Both the position numbers and the translations under genes were made by a program. Positions 1 to 7,377 of a DNA stretch of 7,377 nt are shown here, in pieces (position 1 is the stretch's first letter; each line of letters opens with the position of its first letter). This DNA is from Collinsella sp. (GTDB taxonomy: Bacteria > Actinomycetota > Coriobacteriia > Coriobacteriales > Coriobacteriaceae), in assembly GCA_022728415.1 (NCBI GenBank), contig JAIJJM010000099.1, positions 1 to 7,377 on the forward strand. The letters are read 5' to 3'. The notes below the pieces were generated by a model. The model saw only the letters and a list, made by a program, of their open reading frames with translations, ran no database searches and was not told the DNA's origin.

Positions 1-169
1 GGCATCGGCGGTGGCACAGTCGGGCAAGAGTGAGGACTTGCTCGTCGACAGCATCAACGAGGCGCTCTTTGACTTGGTGGGCGACACCGTTATTGAATTT
101 GGCTCAGCAGGACCGCAGATTATCGAGGACTACGAAGCAGACGTGAGAGGATACCTAGACCATGAGTGA
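1..169 (+). CDS. C-terminal end of a TerB-C-like domain protein (partial, 5' end outside window)
   Basis: Only the last 55 codons are visible, read from base 2 to a TGA at 167-169. The tail is acidic and helical: it contains LLVDSINEALFDLVGDTVIEF, then a Gly-Pro turn, then IIEDYEADVRGYLDHE at the very end. From memory, this 'NE-LFD-IGDT-IE-...-IEDY-DL-G-L' ending resembles the TerB-C domain that closes large TerB-N/TerB-C proteins. Those proteins are placed by comparative genomics in tellurite-resistance-associated and defence-like operons. The stop overlaps the start of the following ATPase gene by 8 bp, so the two are probably translated in a coupled way. The function is not settled even for the family; a sensor or scaffold for the downstream ATPase and helicase is an inference. 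With only 55 residues, the family call is moderate. Confidence 0.6.
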   Translation, partial: ASAVAQSGKSEDLLVDSINEALFDLVGDTVIEFGSAGPQIIEDYEADVRGYLDHE

Positions 170-1466
170 TACCGCATCCGCAGCGCCCCGCGTGCCCAAG
201 CGCGTCGCTGCCGTCATTCTCAACTCGCTCAAGGGCGGCGTGGTCCCGCGCATCGGCCTTCCCTATATCACCGTAGGGCGCGAGGTCGAGATCCGCGCCC
301 TACTCACCGACCTGAACCTCATCGCCGACGGTGGCGCGAGCTTCCGTTTCCTAGTCGGTCGCTACGGCGCCGGCAAGAGCTTTTTGCTCCAGACCATCCG
401 CACGCACGCCATGGGCGAGGGCTTTGTGGTCGCCGATGCCGACCTTTCCCCTGAGCGCCGCCTACAGGGCGGCCAGGGCCAGGGCCTCGCCACCTATCGA
501 GAGCTCATCCGCAACATATCGACCAAGACGCGCCCCGAGGGCGGTGCGCTCAACCTTATCCTAGATCGCTGGGTCGCCTCGTGTGCCGATGCCGACGAGT
601 CTGCCGTCAATTCCCAACTGGCCCCGCTCGAGGAAATGGTCCATGGCTTCGACTTCGCCCGTATGCTCCGCCGCTACCGCGCGGCCGTATCAGAGGGCGA
701 CGAAGAAGCTATGAGTCGCGTGACCAAATGGATCCGCGGCGAATACCGCACCAAGAGCGAGGCTCGCGCCGAACTGGGGTCCTCAACCATCATCAGCGAT
801 GACGACTGGTACGACTACGTTAAGCTCATTGCGCGCTTTTTGGTCTGCAGCGGCTACAAGGGCATGCTGGTGCTCATCGACGAGCTCGTGAATCTGTATA
901 AGATTCCCAACGCCATCACGCGACAGTACAACTACGAGAAAATCCTTACGATGTACAACGACACGCTGCAGGGCAAGACGCAGTACTTGGGCATGATCAT
1001 GGGCGGCACGCCGACCTCTATCGAGGACCGCCGGCGCGGCGTCTTTTCCTACGAGGCCCTTCGGAGCCGTCTCGCTCAGGGCCGTTTTGCACGCAATGAC
1101 CTCAAAGACATGCTCGCGCCCATCATCCGCCTGCAGCCGCTCACCTACGAGGAGCTGCTGGTGCTCATCGAAAAGCTCATGCAGATCCATGCCGGCTACT
1201 TTGGCTGGACGCCCACGCTTACCGAGAACGACTTGGTGGACTTCCTCAAGATTGAGTTTGGCCGCGTGGGGGCAGACACGCACCTGACGCCCCGCGAGGT
1301 CATCCGCGACTTTATCGAGCTGCTCGATATCCTATGTCAAAGCCCCGATGCCAACGTGGCCGAGTTGCTGCAAGGCGTCGGTGGCGACGCGCCGGTGCCG
1401 GCAGCCGCAACAGACGGCACCGGCACCGCAGACGGCGACCGCAACTTCGCCGAATTCACCATCTAA
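162..1466 (+). CDS. brxD: BrxD-type P-loop ATPase (BREX/DUF2791-like ATP-binding protein)
   Basis: This encodes a 434-residue cytoplasmic ATPase of the BrxD/DUF2791 type. In type 2 BREX and related systems it pairs with a helicase; its mechanism is not well defined, and DNA or nucleoprotein remodelling is an inference. Motifs seen are: a conserved-looking N-terminal region with GLPYITVGRE (about 32-41), Walker A GRYGAGKS (66-73), Walker B with hydrophobic strand MLVLIDE (235-241), a sensor-like strand GMIMGGTPT (277-285), and a basic stretch RSRLAQGRF (301-309) that could supply an arginine finger. The rest is mostly helical. A Gly/Ala/Thr-rich linker (about 405-426) ends in the tail NFAEFTI. 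The ATG at 162 overlaps the upstream stop, and an AGAGGA at 146-151 lies 10 bases before it. The stop at 1464-1466 overlaps an inverted repeat. Family length is normal and no motif is missing. Confidence 0.8.
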   Translation: MSDTASAAPRVPKRVAAVILNSLKGGVVPRIGLPYITVGREVEIRALLTDLNLIADGGASFRFLVGRYGAGKSFLLQTIRTHAMGEGFVVADADLSPERRLQGGQGQGLATYRELIRNISTKTRPEGGALNLILDRWVASCADADESAVNSQLAPLEEMVHGFDFARMLRRYRAAVSEGDEEAMSRVTKWIRGEYRTKSEARAELGSSTIISDDDWYDYVKLIARFLVCSGYKGMLVLIDELVNLYKIPNAITRQYNYEKILTMYNDTLQGKTQYLGMIMGGTPTSIEDRRRGVFSYEALRSRLAQGRFARNDLKDMLAPIIRLQPLTYEELLVLIEKLMQIHAGYFGWTPTLTENDLVDFLKIEFGRVGADTHLTPREVIRDFIELLDILCQSPDANVAELLQGVGGDAPVPAAATDGTGTADGDRNFAEFTI

Positions 1467-1501
1467 CCTGCCAAAAAGGGACAGGTTTATTTTGGCAGGT
1501 T
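1465..1501. repeat. 37-bp inverted repeat between brxD and brxHI
   Basis: The two 12-base arms are perfect: AACCTGCCAAAA (1465-1476) and TTTTGGCAGGTT (1490-1501), with a 13-base loop AGGGACAGGTTTA. The left arm starts on the last two bases of the brxD TAA. The right arm runs into TTATC, so an RNA hairpin here would end in a short U-run and could partly terminate or protect the brxD transcript. The core GGGACAGGTTTATTTTGGC resembles the arm of the larger palindrome at 4045-4156, which suggests a shared repeat family. The pairing is seen directly; the role is inferred. Confidence 0.85.
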
Positions 1502-1570
1502 TTATCTGGGCAAACGCCGATGCTGCAATTCGACGACCCATTGCCCGTTGCGTTTGATAGCCCGTTGTTG

Positions 1571-1578
1571 AAAGGAGG
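1571..1578 (+). promoter_or_regulatory. Ribosome binding site that sets the brxHI start
   Basis: AAAGGAGG lies 4 bases before the GTG at 1583. It is the only strong Shine-Dalgarno match near the 5' end of the helicase frame. It favours this GTG over the in-frame ATGs at 1334 (inside brxD) and 1520 (no Shine-Dalgarno). The spacing is slightly short. Confidence 0.75.
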
Positions 1579-1582
1579 CCCC

Positions 1583-4027
1583 GTGAACGCCTTTGACCGC
1601 TACGCCCCGTTTATCCAGGATTTCATTTACTCCCACGATTGGGAGAGCTTGCGCTCCATCCAGGTTGCGGCAGCAGATGCCATCTTTAACACGCAGGACA
1701 ATGTGCTCCTGACAGCATCCACGGCATCTGGCAAAACTGAGGCGGCCTTCTTTCCCATCCTGACCGAGTTTTGGGAGAACCCACCCGCAAGCGTGGGCGC
1801 CCTCTACATTGGTCCCCTCAAGGCGCTCATCAACGACCAATTCGTCCGCCTCAACGACCTGTGCGAAGAAGCCGATATCCCCGTCTGGCACTGGCATGGC
1901 GATGTCTCGCAATCGCACAAGACCAAACTCATCAAAAAACCGAGCGGCATCTTGCAGATTACGCCCGAGTCACTCGAGGCACTCCTAATCCACAAGCACA
2001 TGGCAATCCCGCGTGTGTTCTGTGACCTGCGCTATGTGGTCATCGACGAGGTCCACTCGCTCATGCGCGGTGACCGCGGCGGGCAGACGCTCTGCCTTAT
2101 CGAACGCCTCTCGCGCATGGCGGGCGTGCGGCCCCGGCGCATCGGCCTTTCGGCCACCATTGGCGATCCCGAGCGCACGGGTGCCTTCCTGTCGCAGGGG
2201 ACGGGACGCGACTGCGTCATCCCCCGCTTTGAGGAGCCGCGCCGCGTGTGGCGTATCTCCATGGAGCACTTCTACAACTCGGGTCCCCAGGCGCAGCAGC
2301 GAGGATTCACGGGCACGGGTCCGCAGGAAGCTGAGGTGCTCGCATGCGAGCGCATTGAGGCGGCACCACCCGCGGCACTGCCCGTCAGCACCCAAGACAT
2401 GCGCCATAGCGGACAGCTTACACAGGAGGAACGCCGCCAACGTCGCGAGCAGGCACGGGGCAAGGCTGCCCCCAAGGACCGTCGCACTTCCTCAGCCCCC
2501 GAGGGCGAAGTCGACATCCCGCAGGCAACCGAACAGGCACTGCTCAACCCCACCGACACCGCACCCGACAACGCCGACCCCGGCATGGGCTACATCTTTG
2601 AACATACCCGCGGCCGCAAGTGCCTGGTCTTTGCCAACTCGCGCGAGGAGGCAGAGGCCGTGTGCTCCATGTTGCGCAGCTACTGCGAGAGCCGGCACGA
2701 GCCAGACCGCTTCCTTATCCATCACGGCAACCTCTCGGCATCGCTACGCGAGACCGCCGAGGAGCTCATGCGCGACGAGGAACAGGCACAGACAACCGTC
2801 ACCACCTCCACACTAGAGCTCGGCATTGATATCGGCCGCCTGGAGCGCGCGTTCCAGATCGATGCACCGTTTACCGTCAGCTCCTTTTTGCAGCGCATGG
2901 GGCGCACAGGCCGTCGCGACCTTCCGCCCGAGATGTGGTTTGTCATGCGCGAGGAAGAACCCGAGCCGCGCACGATGATGCCCGAGACCATTCCCTGGAA
3001 GCTCCTACAGGGCATCGCGCTCGTACAACTCTATCGCGAGGAAAAGTGGGTCGAGCCGCCCGAACTCGATCGACTCCCCTACAGCCTGCTCTACCACCAG
3101 ACTATGTCGACGCTCGCCAGTACCGGCGAGCTCACACCGGCCGAGCTTGCTCAGCGCGTTCTCACGCTCAGCTATTTCCACCGTATCTCGGCCGATGACT
3201 ATCGCATACTGCTGCGCCACCTCATCAAGATCGACCATATCCAGGTCACCGAAGGTGGCGGGCTCATCGTGGGTCTCGCGGGAGAGCGCATCATCAACAA
3301 CTTTAAGTTCTACGCCGTGTTCCAGGAGAACGAGGAGTTTACCGTCCGGAGCGAATCGGCCGAGCTGGGCACGATTGTCAACCCGCCACCACCTGGCGAG
3401 CGCATCGCCATCGCGGGCCATTGCTGGATCGTCGAAGAAGTGGACTGGAAGCGACACACCATCTTTGCCACGCAAGTCAAAGGTCGTGTGCCGGCCTACT
3501 TTGGCGACTGCCCCGGCGACATCAATACACACGTACTCGAGCGCATGCGCAAGGCGCTCAACGAGCATGCGGCATATCCGTATCTCATGGGCAACGCACG
3601 GGCACGCCTTGCACAGGCTCGTCATACCGCCGAGATTTCGGGCGCGGGAACTAAACCGCTCATTAACCTGGGCGGCGACACCTGGGTGCTCTTCCCCTGG
3701 CTGGGCAGCTACGCCTTTCTGGCGCTCGAGCGCATACTCAAGATTAAATGTGCCGCTGAGCTTGGCCTTCGCGGGCTCGATCCGTCGCGTCCGTACTTTA
3801 TGCAGTTTAAGATGAAGGCCGACGAGGAGACGTTCTTTGAGGTGCTCGCCGCCGAGGCCGAAAAGGACTTCGACCCCATCGAGCTCGTCTATCCCGGCGA
3901 GGTGCCTTACTTTGACCGCTACGACGAGTTTGTTCCCGAGGAGCTCGTGCGCAAGGGCTTTGCCGAAGGCGTACTCGACATCGAGGGCATGAAGCAGCGT
4001 GTCCGCAGCTGGCGCGACCACGCCTAA
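1583..4027 (+). CDS. brxHI: BrxHI-type Lhr-like DEAD/DEAH helicase
   Basis: This encodes an 814-residue superfamily II ATP-dependent helicase of the Lhr-like group, as found beside BrxD in BREX type 2 and TerB-linked loci. It probably unwinds or translocates on nucleic acid in the cytoplasm. Counting from the GTG, motif I is TASTASGKT (44-52), motif Ia is in IGPLKALINDQ (76-86), motif II is DEVH (155-158), motif III is SAT (190-192), motif V is TLELGIDIG (410-418) and motif VI is QRMGRTGRR (437-445). A long charged Pro/Ala-rich linker (about 232-335) separates the two RecA-like lobes. A large C-terminal region (about 465-814) follows, as in Lhr-type helicases. All catalytic motifs look intact. 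The GTG is chosen for its AAAGGAGG; an ATG at 1520 would add 21 residues. The gene follows brxD by 116 bases across an inverted repeat and is probably in the same operon. Confidence 0.82.
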   Translation: MNAFDRYAPFIQDFIYSHDWESLRSIQVAAADAIFNTQDNVLLTASTASGKTEAAFFPILTEFWENPPASVGALYIGPLKALINDQFVRLNDLCEEADIPVWHWHGDVSQSHKTKLIKKPSGILQITPESLEALLIHKHMAIPRVFCDLRYVVIDEVHSLMRGDRGGQTLCLIERLSRMAGVRPRRIGLSATIGDPERTGAFLSQGTGRDCVIPRFEEPRRVWRISMEHFYNSGPQAQQRGFTGTGPQEAEVLACERIEAAPPAALPVSTQDMRHSGQLTQEERRQRREQARGKAAPKDRRTSSAPEGEVDIPQATEQALLNPTDTAPDNADPGMGYIFEHTRGRKCLVFANSREEAEAVCSMLRSYCESRHEPDRFLIHHGNLSASLRETAEELMRDEEQAQTTVTTSTLELGIDIGRLERAFQIDAPFTVSSFLQRMGRTGRRDLPPEMWFVMREEEPEPRTMMPETIPWKLLQGIALVQLYREEKWVEPPELDRLPYSLLYHQTMSTLASTGELTPAELAQRVLTLSYFHRISADDYRILLRHLIKIDHIQVTEGGGLIVGLAGERIINNFKFYAVFQENEEFTVRSESAELGTIVNPPPPGERIAIAGHCWIVEEVDWKRHTIFATQVKGRVPAYFGDCPGDINTHVLERMRKALNEHAAYPYLMGNARARLAQARHTAEISGAGTKPLINLGGDTWVLFPWLGSYAFLALERILKIKCAAELGLRGLDPSRPYFMQFKMKADEETFFEVLAAEAEKDFDPIELVYPGEVPYFDRYDEFVPEELVRKGFAEGVLDIEGMKQRVRSWRDHA

Positions 4028-4044
4028 AACGGGGCCGACTATAT

Positions 4045-4156
4045 GAGTAGTCAATTTGGGACGGGGCTATTTTAGCTACCCCTGCCGCCAATCGGCCAAC
4101 CCGTTCGCGCTACCTGCTTGGGTAGCTAAAATAGCCCCGTCCCAAATTGACTACTC
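4045..4156. repeat. 112-bp palindromic element with perfect 37-bp arms
   Basis: The left arm (4045-4081, beginning GAGTAGTCAATTTGGGACGG) is an exact reverse complement of the right arm (4120-4156, ending GTCCCAAATTGACTACTC). The unpaired centre of 38 bases (4082-4119) is unrelated to the arms except for a second GCTACC at 4109-4114. That copy can pair with GGTAGC at 4121-4126 and so competes with the main stem. The element starts 17 bases after the brxHI stop and ends 8 bases before the stop of the convergent gene at 4165. It may end transcripts from both sides, although there is no adjacent long U-run in either direction. The perfect arms, ordered size and similarity to 1465-1501 suggest a mobile palindromic (REP/MITE-like) repeat, which is an inference. 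Confidence 0.93.
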
Positions 4157-4164
4157 CCAATAGG

Positions 4165-5040
4165 CTAGTCGTGGAGGGCAGCGCCGAGGAAGTCGGTGTC
4201 GAAGGGCACAGCTTCGGCAAAGGCGTAGTCGCCGTCGCTGGCGATGAGCAGGTAGTTCTCCTCGCCGCCGAACTCCGCATCGCCACATGGGACCACCCAG
4301 GCGTGGGCGAATACCTCGAGTGCCGTGGCAGCGCAGTCGCGCAGGAACGTCACATCGCTCCCCTCGTTTGCGCTCACGATATTGGCCACGTAGATACCCC
4401 CGGGGTTCAGGCTGCCTCGCACCAAACGCAGCGCCTCAACCGTTGCCAGCTCGCGCACGGGCTCGGTACCGCCAAAGCAATCGCTCACGACCACGTCGTA
4501 GCGACGATGGCCCACGCTCGTCACACCCAGATACGAGCGAGCCTCAGCGGTAATCACTCGCAGGCGATCGCCCACCGCGTGCTCCAGCTCATCCAGGTAG
4601 AACCAGCGGCGTGCCAAGCGCGTTACCTCTCCGTCATACTCGATAACGTCCATGCGCAGGCCCTCGTGCGACATCAGCGCAAATTTGGGATAGGCAAACC
4701 CGCCGCCACCTAGCATAAGCATGCGGTCGATGCCGTGACCATAAGCGTCGCGCATTGCATCCTCGGCCTCAAACACGTCGTCAAACGCACGGTAGTACGC
4801 AAAGACGGGCTCTGCCCAACGCTCGCCAACGTAACTCGCGCTTTGGTAGACGCCGCCTTGCACCAGCACGCGAATCTCATCGCCGTTCCCCGCGTGCACG
4901 CGCTTCACACGCGCCAGCCCATTGCGGGTTCGTGCAACCTGCAGGCAGGCAGCATGGACAGCGACGGCGGCCGCACCAAGCGCCGCAGCTCCCAGGGCAA
5001 CGCCGGCAACGACGCCAGCAGAAACACTCGGCTTGTTCAT
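4165..5040 (-). CDS. Membrane-anchored spermidine-synthase-like (SAM-binding Rossmann) protein
   Basis: This encodes a 291-residue protein with an Ala/Gly/Val-rich hydrophobic segment at about 8-32, either a membrane anchor or an uncleaved signal. After it comes a Rossmann fold of the spermidine-synthase/methyltransferase type. Visible motifs are the nucleotide loop MLMLGGGGFAYP (107-118), the acidic strand end DVIEYDGEV (131-139), the DVVVSDCFGG segment (182-191) and LNPGGIYVANIVS (211-223). Classical spermidine synthases have an Asp-Ser-Thr-Asp-Pro type active-site segment; here it is SDCFGG. Polyamine synthesis is therefore not assured, and another aminopropyl- or methyltransferase activity is possible. 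The ATG follows the elp3 TAG directly, with AAAGGAG 6 bases upstream, so coupled translation with elp3 is likely. It is convergent with brxHI. I give no gene symbol because the substrate is unknown. Confidence 0.72.
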   Translation of the reverse strand: MNKPSVSAGVVAGVALGAAALGAAAVAVHAACLQVARTRNGLARVKRVHAGNGDEIRVLVQGGVYQSASYVGERWAEPVFAYYRAFDDVFEAEDAMRDAYGHGIDRMLMLGGGGFAYPKFALMSHEGLRMDVIEYDGEVTRLARRWFYLDELEHAVGDRLRVITAEARSYLGVTSVGHRRYDVVVSDCFGGTEPVRELATVEALRLVRGSLNPGGIYVANIVSANEGSDVTFLRDCAATALEVFAHAWVVPCGDAEFGGEENYLLIASDGDYAFAEAVPFDTDFLGAALHD

Positions 5041-6948
5041 CTAGAGCTCCTTTTGCAGATAGAGTCCATGGTCGTAAAAACCCAGATGGCGATAGTACTC
5101 GCGCGTACCGATTGCGCTGATCACGTTGATGTGCGAATACCCCGCGTCCCGAGCAATATGGCATGCGCGCTCCACCAGCAACCGCCCCAGCCCATGGTGC
5201 TGGGCCGCCTGGCCTTGATCCCCCACGCGTGCCGCCATACCATACACGTGCACCTCACGAATCATCGCCTCGTCCGGCCCCGTCGGCAGCTCGTCCGCGT
5301 GCGCGGCAACAAACGAACGGGCGGGCAACGACAGCCGCAAAAAACCCGCGATCTTGCCCTGCGGCGTCACCCACTGCAAAAAGCGCTCATAAGTCACCGG
5401 CGTCTCGTACGCCACTTCCTCATCGAGAGACAGCTCATCCAAGTCGGCACCCGCAGTACTGATCTCGCGATAGCGAATCTCGCGCACCGCCGCGCCTTCT
5501 CCGCGAGCCGCCAAGCGGTTCTCGACGAGTTGACGCAGGTTGGGCTTCTTGTTGCCCACCATGATGTCATCGGAACTAAAGTCGCGAATCATGCGGCTGA
5601 TACGGCAGAACGACGGCGTCACCACGATGTCGTCGGCCAGCACGTCGAGCAGCTCTTCCTCGGTATAGGGGCGCCACTCGCCACGCTCGTAACAGCCCAC
5701 CAGACGCGAGCCCTCGATGAGTGCGCACGGGTAGACCTTGACCTCATCGGGCATAAAGGCCCCCTCGGTCATAAAGCGCTCGTAGTCGCGCTTGTCCCCC
5801 TCGGGCGTGGCGCCGAGCAAATTGAGCATAAAGTGCGCGTGGATCTTAAAACCAAACAGGCGCGCGAGCGAAAACGCTCGCTCGACCTGTGCCACCAAAA
5901 TACGGCGCTCGTTGATGTCGAGCAGGTGCTGGTCGAGACTCTGGATGCCCATCTGAATCTTGGTGCAGCCCAGACGGCGAACGAGCGCAAGCGCTTGCGG
6001 CGTCACGGCATCGGGGCGCGTCTCGATAACGAGCCCCACCACGCGATGCTTCGCCGTCTCGTTGATGTGCTGCTGGCGCTCAAGCTCCTCCATCGTAGCG
6101 GTCTGCCACTCGGTGACCTCGCCCCACGGCGTGCCGGGACCGTACAGGCGACGCACCGCGCGGTTGTAGCCGCCCACGGCGGCATCCACACGCTCCTGCT
6201 CGTCGGCAACGCCGACAGTAAGCTCGGCCTCGCCTGTCGCAATACCGGCGGCCCGATAGCGCTCGCGACGCTCCGCCACTACCGACGGAAGAGCATCGGC
6301 GGGAGCATCATCGAGCAGGCGCCCTGCCTCGGCACGACTGATACCCAGACGCGCCAGCATGGGATTGGCCGCCACGCCGGCCACAGCATCGTCATTGAGT
6401 GCACGGAAAAGCTCCGACATAAACCATGTCTGATAGCCTTCCGGATAGTCGCTCCAGGTGCCACCGAGCACGATGAGCTCGATCTTATCGGTCGCATGCC
6501 CCATCTGCGAAAGTGCGGTCAGACGAGCACTCACCTGCAGATACGGGTCGAAGCAGTTTTGCTCCGCGCGGGCGCACGCCGGCTCGTCGTGCAGATAGCT
6601 TTTGGGCATGCGCAGATCGCTGGGGCAAAACAGGCAATCGCCCGAACAGGGCCACGGCTTGGTGATGACGGTAATGGTCGCCACACCCGAAGCCGTGCGA
6701 CGCGGCTTCATCCTCAGCACTCGCAGCAGCTGGCGTTCCAGATCGGCATCGACATTCCACGCAGCCCAACGAGCCGGCTCCTCGCGCTTCACCCGCTGGT
6801 AAAACGGCAGCAGACGGCGCTTGGCCAGATCGCGCTTGTCGGCACCCTCACGGCGTGCCTCGGCATGAATCAGTTTGACGAGCGCCTTGTCGTCCACGGT
6901 CTCGCCGCGACGCAGGGCATCGAGTATGTTCAAAATAATCTGTTCCAT
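5041..6948 (-). CDS. elp3: Elp3-type radical SAM/GNAT tRNA wobble-uridine-modifying enzyme
   Basis: This encodes a 635-residue bacterial Elp3. Elp3 uses a 4Fe-4S cluster with S-adenosylmethionine, plus acetyl-CoA, to carboxymethylate C5 of uridine 34 in tRNA; that role is known from eukaryotic, archaeal and a few bacterial homologues. Seen here are the cluster motif CSGDCLFC (C101, C105, C108), extra cysteines C125 and C132 that may bind metal, VLGGTWSDYPEGY (160-172), VIETRPD (307-313), KIQMGIQSLD (330-339), KIHAHFMLNLLGATPEGD (368-385) and VKVYPCALIEGS (403-414). The C-terminal GNAT domain follows, with IREVHVYG (563-570), the acetyl-CoA loop QHHGLGRLL (583-591) and GTREYYRHLGF (614-624). 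Between the GGT and ETRPD motifs it carries roughly 80 more residues than I expect for archaeal Elp3. The start ATG has only a weak GGGG-type ribosome site. It is co-directional and adjacent (0 bp) to the spermidine-synthase-like gene. Confidence 0.9.
   Translation of the reverse strand: MEQIILNILDALRRGETVDDKALVKLIHAEARREGADKRDLAKRRLLPFYQRVKREEPARWAAWNVDADLERQLLRVLRMKPRRTASGVATITVITKPWPCSGDCLFCPSDLRMPKSYLHDEPACARAEQNCFDPYLQVSARLTALSQMGHATDKIELIVLGGTWSDYPEGYQTWFMSELFRALNDDAVAGVAANPMLARLGISRAEAGRLLDDAPADALPSVVAERRERYRAAGIATGEAELTVGVADEQERVDAAVGGYNRAVRRLYGPGTPWGEVTEWQTATMEELERQQHINETAKHRVVGLVIETRPDAVTPQALALVRRLGCTKIQMGIQSLDQHLLDINERRILVAQVERAFSLARLFGFKIHAHFMLNLLGATPEGDKRDYERFMTEGAFMPDEVKVYPCALIEGSRLVGCYERGEWRPYTEEELLDVLADDIVVTPSFCRISRMIRDFSSDDIMVGNKKPNLRQLVENRLAARGEGAAVREIRYREISTAGADLDELSLDEEVAYETPVTYERFLQWVTPQGKIAGFLRLSLPARSFVAAHADELPTGPDEAMIREVHVYGMAARVGDQGQAAQHHGLGRLLVERACHIARDAGYSHINVISAIGTREYYRHLGFYDHGLYLQKEL
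5047..5053 (-). promoter_or_regulatory. Ribosome binding site inside the elp3 3' end
   Basis: On the - strand AAAGGAG lies within the last elp3 codons and 6 bases before the ATG at 5040. It supports that start and coupling of the spermidine-synthase-like gene to elp3, whose TAG directly precedes the ATG. Confidence 0.75.
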
Positions 6949-6967
6949 GACCCCATTGTAAAGGCAA

Positions 6968-6999
6968 AGGCGCCGGAGCCCGTCACGGCTCCGGCGCCT
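6968..6999 (-). terminator. GC-rich hairpin, probable terminator of the DUF4097-like gene
   Basis: The 13-bp arms at 6968-6980 and 6987-6999 (core GGCGCCGGAGCC) pair perfectly around a 6-base loop. On the - strand the stem is followed by TTTGCCTTTAC, a broken U-run, so termination is plausible but may be incomplete. It lies 52 bases past the stop of the gene ending at 7052 and only 19 bases before the elp3 ATG. It therefore may also sit in the elp3 leader. Confidence 0.75.
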
Positions 7000-7051
7000 A
7001 CATCAAACAGCGCGTATAAGCATCTATGTTTGCGGACTTAGCCCGCCGTCG

Positions 7052-7377
7052 TCATTCCGGATTGAACGACATGTCGCCCGAACCAACCGCAAAGCGATAC
7101 GTAGCAGACTTGTCACCGTTATCGAATTCAAGATTCAAAATAGTCTCTCCATCGTAGCCAAGCGGAAGGAAATCGCTCTCGAAGTCGCCACTGCCCAAGG
7201 TGAGGCTCGCCTTAAAGCCCGTAGAGTTCGGAACCGTCATCTCCACGTCGCCCGAGTCCACGCTTACGTTCATCGACTTCGCGGGGGCCTGGTAGAGCTC
7301 GAACGTCACATCGCCCGAACCGACCTCGGCACTGAGCGCATCAGTCACGCTGCCCGTAAACTCTACATCTCCCGCAC
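7052..7377 (-). CDS. C-terminal end of a DUF4097-like beta-repeat protein (partial)
   Basis: The visible 107 residues run from the window edge to a TGA at 7052-7054, and the N-terminus lies beyond 7377. An in-frame GTG at 7348 could be mistaken for a start, but the frame is open upstream with the same repeat (AGDVEFTGSV), so it is internal. The sequence is a series of short beta-strands each turning at a Gly-Asp: AGDV, GSGDV, DSGDV, GSGDF, DNGDK and GSGDM. This matches the DUF4097 beta-repeat pattern, often found in Actinobacteria and Firmicutes as the extracytoplasmic part of membrane proteins, sometimes with PspC or DUF1700-type partners upstream. The molecular role is not established. The end MSFNPE is followed after 52 bases by a hairpin. 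No membrane segment is visible in this part. Confidence 0.75.
   Translation of the reverse strand, partial: AGDVEFTGSVTDALSAEVGSGDVTFELYQAPAKSMNVSVDSGDVEMTVPNSTGFKASLTLGSGDFESDFLPLGYDGETILNLEFDNGDKSATYRFAVGSGDMSFNPE

Follow-up and report, generated by a model that had tools for sequence, protein, structure and literature searches.

The stretch analyzed here, a window of 7,377 nucleotides from Collinsella sp. (assembly GCA_022728415.1, contig JAIJJM010000099.1), carries the 3′ part of a Shango operon, sngA-sngB-sngC, from a Collinsella close to C. aerofaciens, an identification to which we assign a probability of about 0.93. Shango is an anti-phage system reportedly first described by Millman et al. 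in 2022. According to passages of PMC10250203, the Shango of P. aeruginosa PA14 consists of a TerB-like protein, an ATPase, and a DEAD/DEAH helicase; brought into PAO1 it reduced the plating of many, though not all, phages 10- to 100-fold and also protected PAO1 liquid cultures, and the same passages credit Shango in E. coli to other authors. As a find, the window locus is ordinary and is accounted for by this known system; its retention across a whole clade is the part worth following.

The assignment is made because the SngA, SngB, and SngC models fit all three genes, with the two complete ones far above the models of bacteriophage exclusion (BREX) systems, and because the complete SngA of a relative carries both TerB domains. 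The initial annotation, made from the letters of the window, had named the second and third genes brxD and brxHI. The product of the former is indeed an ATPase of the BrxC/BrxD family (Pfam BrxC_BrxD, E = 5.5e-149), with a Walker A motif GRYGAGKS at residue 66 and a Walker B motif LVLIDE at residue 236, but in PADLOC it scores as SngB (561 bits, E = 4.7e-169) against 134 bits for BrxD, and with 135.6 bits it stays under the cut-off of 350 of the NCBI BrxD equivalog. The latter encodes an Lhr-like helicase, as had been read (motifs DEVH at residue 155, SAT at 190, and QRMGRTGR at 437), which scores as SngC (917 bits, E = 3.3e-276) and not as BrxHI (408 bits). The open frame at the left end of the window had been proposed to be a TerB-C-like tail, and the profile search bears this out: it matches positions 110 to 148 of the 148 of Pfam TerB_C with 34.3 bits (cut-off 26.3, E = 3.4e-8) and the end of the PADLOC SngA model (E = 3e-11). 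Nine residues are invariant across 35 aligned C-terminal ends; eight of them fall inside the stretch held by the window, and all eight are present. The complete sngA of the related Collinsella sp. locus L007 (8248-10008) encodes 586 residues with TerB_N and TerB_C domains and matches SngA at E = 2.8e-77. TerB protein, ATPase, and helicase thus follow one another in the order of Shango on a single strand of the window. The start of sngB is the ATG at 162, which gives the 8-base overlap with the sngA stop that had been noted before, and for sngC the GTG at 1583 is favored, with AGGAGG immediately 5′ of it, giving 814 residues; a longer helicase frame from 1334 was set aside, as it would enter the ATPase gene.

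The distribution of the three genes was followed in the genus and families of the genomes that hold L007 (Collinsella sp.), L053 (Thermophilibacter), and L078 (an Eggerthellaceae metagenome-assembled genome, MAG), for which completeness figures are lacking. In L007's genus, all 43 genomes have an SngA match and none of 14 controls does; four of the matches are partial or divided over more than one contig (G030, G035, G036, G039). SngC is present in all 43 at E below 1e-100, once as a partial match (G036); since its model at E = 0.001 also matches 13 of the 14 controls, as helicases do, only strong matches were counted. SngB is found in 41 of the 43 genomes and in one control, and the two genomes lacking it, G030 and G036, are both of 1.6 Mb with partial SngA matches, so that incomplete assemblies would fit. 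Outside this genus, SngB occurs in 106 of 140 genomes of the Thermophilibacter genome's family (the best match of each genome at E = 2.7e-58 or lower), in 15 of 138 in the family of the Eggerthellaceae MAG (two weak), and in 126 of 296 in a sample of the class (five weak). A phylum sample gave SngA in 12 of 296 genomes, 11 of which were already in the class draw. By these counts the system is concentrated in a part of the class and rare in the remaining phylum sample. Three SngB matches carry one in-frame TAG each (G268:C1:321385-321888; G342:C204:5791-6297; G334:C177:1-561). A stronger, stop-free match lies beside those of G268 and G342, while that of G334 is the sole match in its genome; they may be decaying extra copies or assembly pieces.

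Relatives of SngB also occur on plasmids, in 691 of 72,556 records, 542 of them predicted conjugative and all with less than 60% identity to the SngB of the window. The two plasmids examined of these 691, from Aeromonas and Paenibacillus, both typed non-mobilizable, carry complete trios with the same order and the same model hits. The phage records gave no SngB match.

The arrangement and divergence of the operon were compared over the best 80 of 547 confirmed loci, a set biased to close relatives. Against L001 to L017 (Collinsella, many of them C. aerofaciens, hereafter the aerofaciens group) the window has a DNA identity of 90% to 92% in the operon and 89% to 91% in the flank, and all 17 of these loci repeat the 8-base overlap of sngA and sngB and have 116 bases between sngB and sngC. 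The trio stands on one strand inside the fetched stretch in 68 of the 80 loci, some of the others being cut by contig ends. The distance between sngB and sngC exceeds 1 kb in 30 of the 71 loci showing both, and that between sngA and sngB does so in 8 of 75. In genome G019, sngA and sngB lie at 950 to 953 kb of contig 3, which extends beyond 1.07 Mb, and sngC is on contig 2. That the genes are retained despite such separation argues for a joint function. A Pfam scan of 15 selected frames between sngB and sngC in relatives gave five of metabolic or transport type (two hydrogenase-like, one glutamate-synthase-like, two of ABC-transport type), one PIN/RelB-like pair with the RelB match just below the cut-off, an AAA_14/DUF4143 protein, a DUF5104 protein, an M13 peptidase with ankyrin repeats, a LytTR protein, and a NikA-like mobilization protein; three frames had no Pfam match. 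Some of these intervening genes may be defense cargo.

SngA is the fastest-diverging of the three proteins: it is 93% identical inside the aerofaciens group and 47% identical to the remaining loci, compared to 98% and 75% for SngB and 97% and 74% for SngC. Within the group, SngB (0.976) and SngC (0.970) stand beside the neighboring Elp3-like protein (0.964). The identities of SngB and of the Elp3-like protein correlate at 0.97 over 26 loci and at 0.38 over the 11 loci that remain when one aerofaciens locus is kept. In the SngB tree, the loci labeled Atopobiaceae do not form one clade, and L043 is placed elsewhere. This last is a mixed Shango locus (8396-18862): its SngA (89%), SngC (94.5%), and spermidine-synthase-like protein (95%) resemble those of L053, and its SngB is 94% identical to that of L034, a Coriobacteriaceae MAG, which could reflect a swapped segment or a chimeric assembly. 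Within SngC, residues about 255 to 320 (window positions 2345-2542) form a charged, poorly conserved segment between the helicase halves, gapped in some aligned loci and absent from the SngC of the Paenibacillus plasmid.

These counts raise the possibility, which we hold tentatively and well short of even odds, that in Collinsella and in Thermophilibacter/Olsenella Shango is a near-core system and not an accessory island, either a lineage-wide innate defense or a domesticated machine that guards the genome; its ATPase and helicase would be conserved and its TerB subunit would change fast. The open-licence papers searched, which take in neither preprints nor most subscription papers, yielded no report that describes Shango as near-core in Collinsella or Coriobacteriia. 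The genes last even where others have been inserted among them or sngC has moved elsewhere, so that under this reading the role of Shango without phages becomes directly testable. A clade in which the system is nearly universal also offers a way to ask about a role beyond phage defense, as well as many natural variants (121 genomes of the class sample with strong SngB matches) for finding the interfaces by co-variation. A stronger version, in which the trio serves the clade chiefly for housekeeping or genome maintenance and phage defense is secondary or lost, appears unlikely to us. The near-complete counts in the genus would suit it, as would SngB and SngC being no more variable than the Elp3-like neighbor in the aerofaciens group, and the keeping of the genes despite frequent insertions and, in G019, a change of contig. 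However, relatives of the system are proven to be anti-phage, an immune system can itself persist as a core trait of a lineage, and the SngB-Elp3 correlation and the SngB tree leave vertical descent undemonstrated. The 13 strong matches among 138 genomes in the family of the Eggerthellaceae MAG also indicate that the class does not need the system.

How the three proteins of the Shango operon might work together can be sketched from their families, and we consider the following loader scheme as a whole to be somewhat short of an even bet. The TerB protein SngA would sense or adapt; SngB, as a BrxD-like AAA+ ATPase, would assemble with SngA and load the superfamily 2 (SF2) helicase SngC onto invading or abnormal DNA; and SngC would unwind or translocate on the DNA on which it is loaded, halting phage replication. 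A loader role for BrxD with BrxHI is mentioned in a section of PMC12839542 as a suggestion of other authors, and the mechanism of Shango is given as unknown in a 2026 review (PMC12926258). No nuclease or modification enzyme was recognized in the operon by the family scans, so that any destruction of DNA would require an unrecognized activity of SngA or a nuclease of the host.

The TerB_N and TerB_C domains would also be expected of a Ter-type module against tellurite or chemical stress in general, a reading that we regard as very improbable, as no further Ter gene is seen among the L007 neighbors scanned and the TerB protein is accompanied by the ATPase and helicase of Shango.

The initial annotation had reported that no BREX-type methyltransferase, PglZ, or PglW gene is visible, and none was found among the six window proteins scanned. 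The upstream check that it called for was made on L007, where a PADLOC scan of 12 among the 17 longest open frames of the 21-kb locus gave no core gene of the pgl or brx type; besides the three Shango genes, it gave only two weak matches to a MADS protein. PglX, PglW, and PglY/BrxC are absent among the six window proteins and these 12 frames, and were not sought genome-wide. PglZ was: L007's genome has no match, and in its genus PglZ is found in 13 of 43 genomes, all of them among the 41 with SngB, which leaves 28, L007's included, that have SngB without PglZ. With SngB in 41 of 43 genomes and PglZ in 13, a BREX core is evidently unnecessary for keeping the trio. That the operon is the remnant of a type 2 BREX whose core was lost or lies elsewhere in the genome, for which the lower-scoring BrxD and BrxHI matches and the 13 genomes with PglZ could be cited, is the least probable reading and was rejected, since each complete gene scores over 400 bits higher with its Shango model, the BrxD cut-off is missed, the first gene is a TerB gene and no BREX component, and PglZ gives no match in 28 of the 41 genomes with SngB. 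The earlier proposal of a compact defense system in its own right holds in that the trio is an operon of its own, with a TerB gene as its third member and no BREX core seen beside it among the genes scanned; what does not hold is its unnamed status, as the system is already called Shango. For the further suggestion that the TerB protein replaces the modification and phosphatase parts of BREX, no supporting evidence was found.

The features of the window, within and beyond the Shango operon, are given in Table 1. The inverted repeat behind sngB folds as RNA at −20.2 kcal/mol (z = −3.1), with 2 of 200 shuffles equally good, and its core pattern occurs in 11 of 88 loci, all within the 17 of the aerofaciens group and directly 3′ of sngB. 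It was not picked up in the terminator scan, and it possibly influences the expression of sngC. Over positions 1 to 5100, no promoter-like consensus site was found (shuffle mean 1.4), and the one terminator-like site lies within sngB (shuffle mean 3.4). The palindrome that follows sngC folds at −81.7 kcal/mol (z = −12) and had been taken for the end of the module, a role, like that of a regulator, that we reject: it is a dispersed repeat, with 16 to 46 scattered matches (both strands counted) in each of 22 of the 43 genomes of L007's genus. In 15 of the 17 close relatives the convergent gene comes within 17 to 27 bases of the sngC stop, which leaves no space for the palindrome, so it is absent there. 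The palindrome is present in L010, in a gap of 204 bases after sngC; the gap in L017 is of 102 bases. The convergent chromosomal genes described earlier were recovered as a spermidine-synthase-like and an Elp3-like gene. The former is convergent after sngC in 29 of the 80 loci, among them all 17 of the aerofaciens group; in 18 loci it stands before sngA. On the other side of the operon, L007 has DUF554 and electron-transfer-flavoprotein genes upstream of sngA, and a 476-residue protein with a signal-like start and no Pfam match (5895-7325) upstream of DUF554 and sngA. Two open frames of the same locus, at 18526-19533 and 19652-20491, weakly match the MADS protein mad2 (E = 1.3e-6 and 3e-4).

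Table 1. Features of the 7,377-nucleotide window, in order of position
Positions	Strand	Feature	Details
2..169	+	3′ end of sngA (TerB-C tail, 55 codons and stop)	Open off the left end of the window; coding 2-166, stop 167-169
162..1466	+	sngB, AAA+ ATPase of the BrxC/BrxD family, 434 aa	PADLOC SngB; Pfam BrxC_BrxD
1465..1501	+	12-base inverted repeat with perfect arms, between sngB and sngC	Overlaps the sngB stop
1583..4027	+	sngC, Lhr-like SF2 helicase, 814 aa	PADLOC SngC; DEAD and Helicase_C domains
4045..4156	strandless	Palindromic dispersed repeat, outside the operon	37-base perfect arms 4045-4081 and 4120-4156
4165..5040	−	Spermidine-synthase-like gene, convergent neighbor, outside the operon	NCBIfam MFS_SpdSyn 72.2 bits (cut-off 40)
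5041..6948	−	Elp3-like radical SAM/acetyltransferase gene, convergent neighbor, outside the operon	ELP3 396 bits (cut-off 350)
7052..7375		Partial DUF4097 protein, beyond the Elp3-like gene	

Among known systems, the helicases DruE of Druantia, DpdJ of Dpd, and HamB of Hachiman give weaker model matches to the SngC of the window, and the likeness is confined to the helicase part, as their partner genes are unlike those of SngC. A passage of PMC12278908 groups SngC, BrxHI, DruE, and DpdJ in a single helicase clade. Type 2 BREX has a related ATPase-helicase pair, but the window operon opens with a TerB protein instead, its ATPase misses the BrxD cut-off, and PglX, PglZ, PglW, and BrxC were not seen adjoining the trio among the L007 frames scanned; BrxD/BrxHI and SngB/SngC are related pairs that serve different systems. 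With Shango itself the window shares the three genes, their order and orientation, and the model matches, and the points of difference are the poorly conserved segment of SngC, the extra genes between sngB and sngC in many relatives of the locus, and the near-universal presence of the system in L007's genus.
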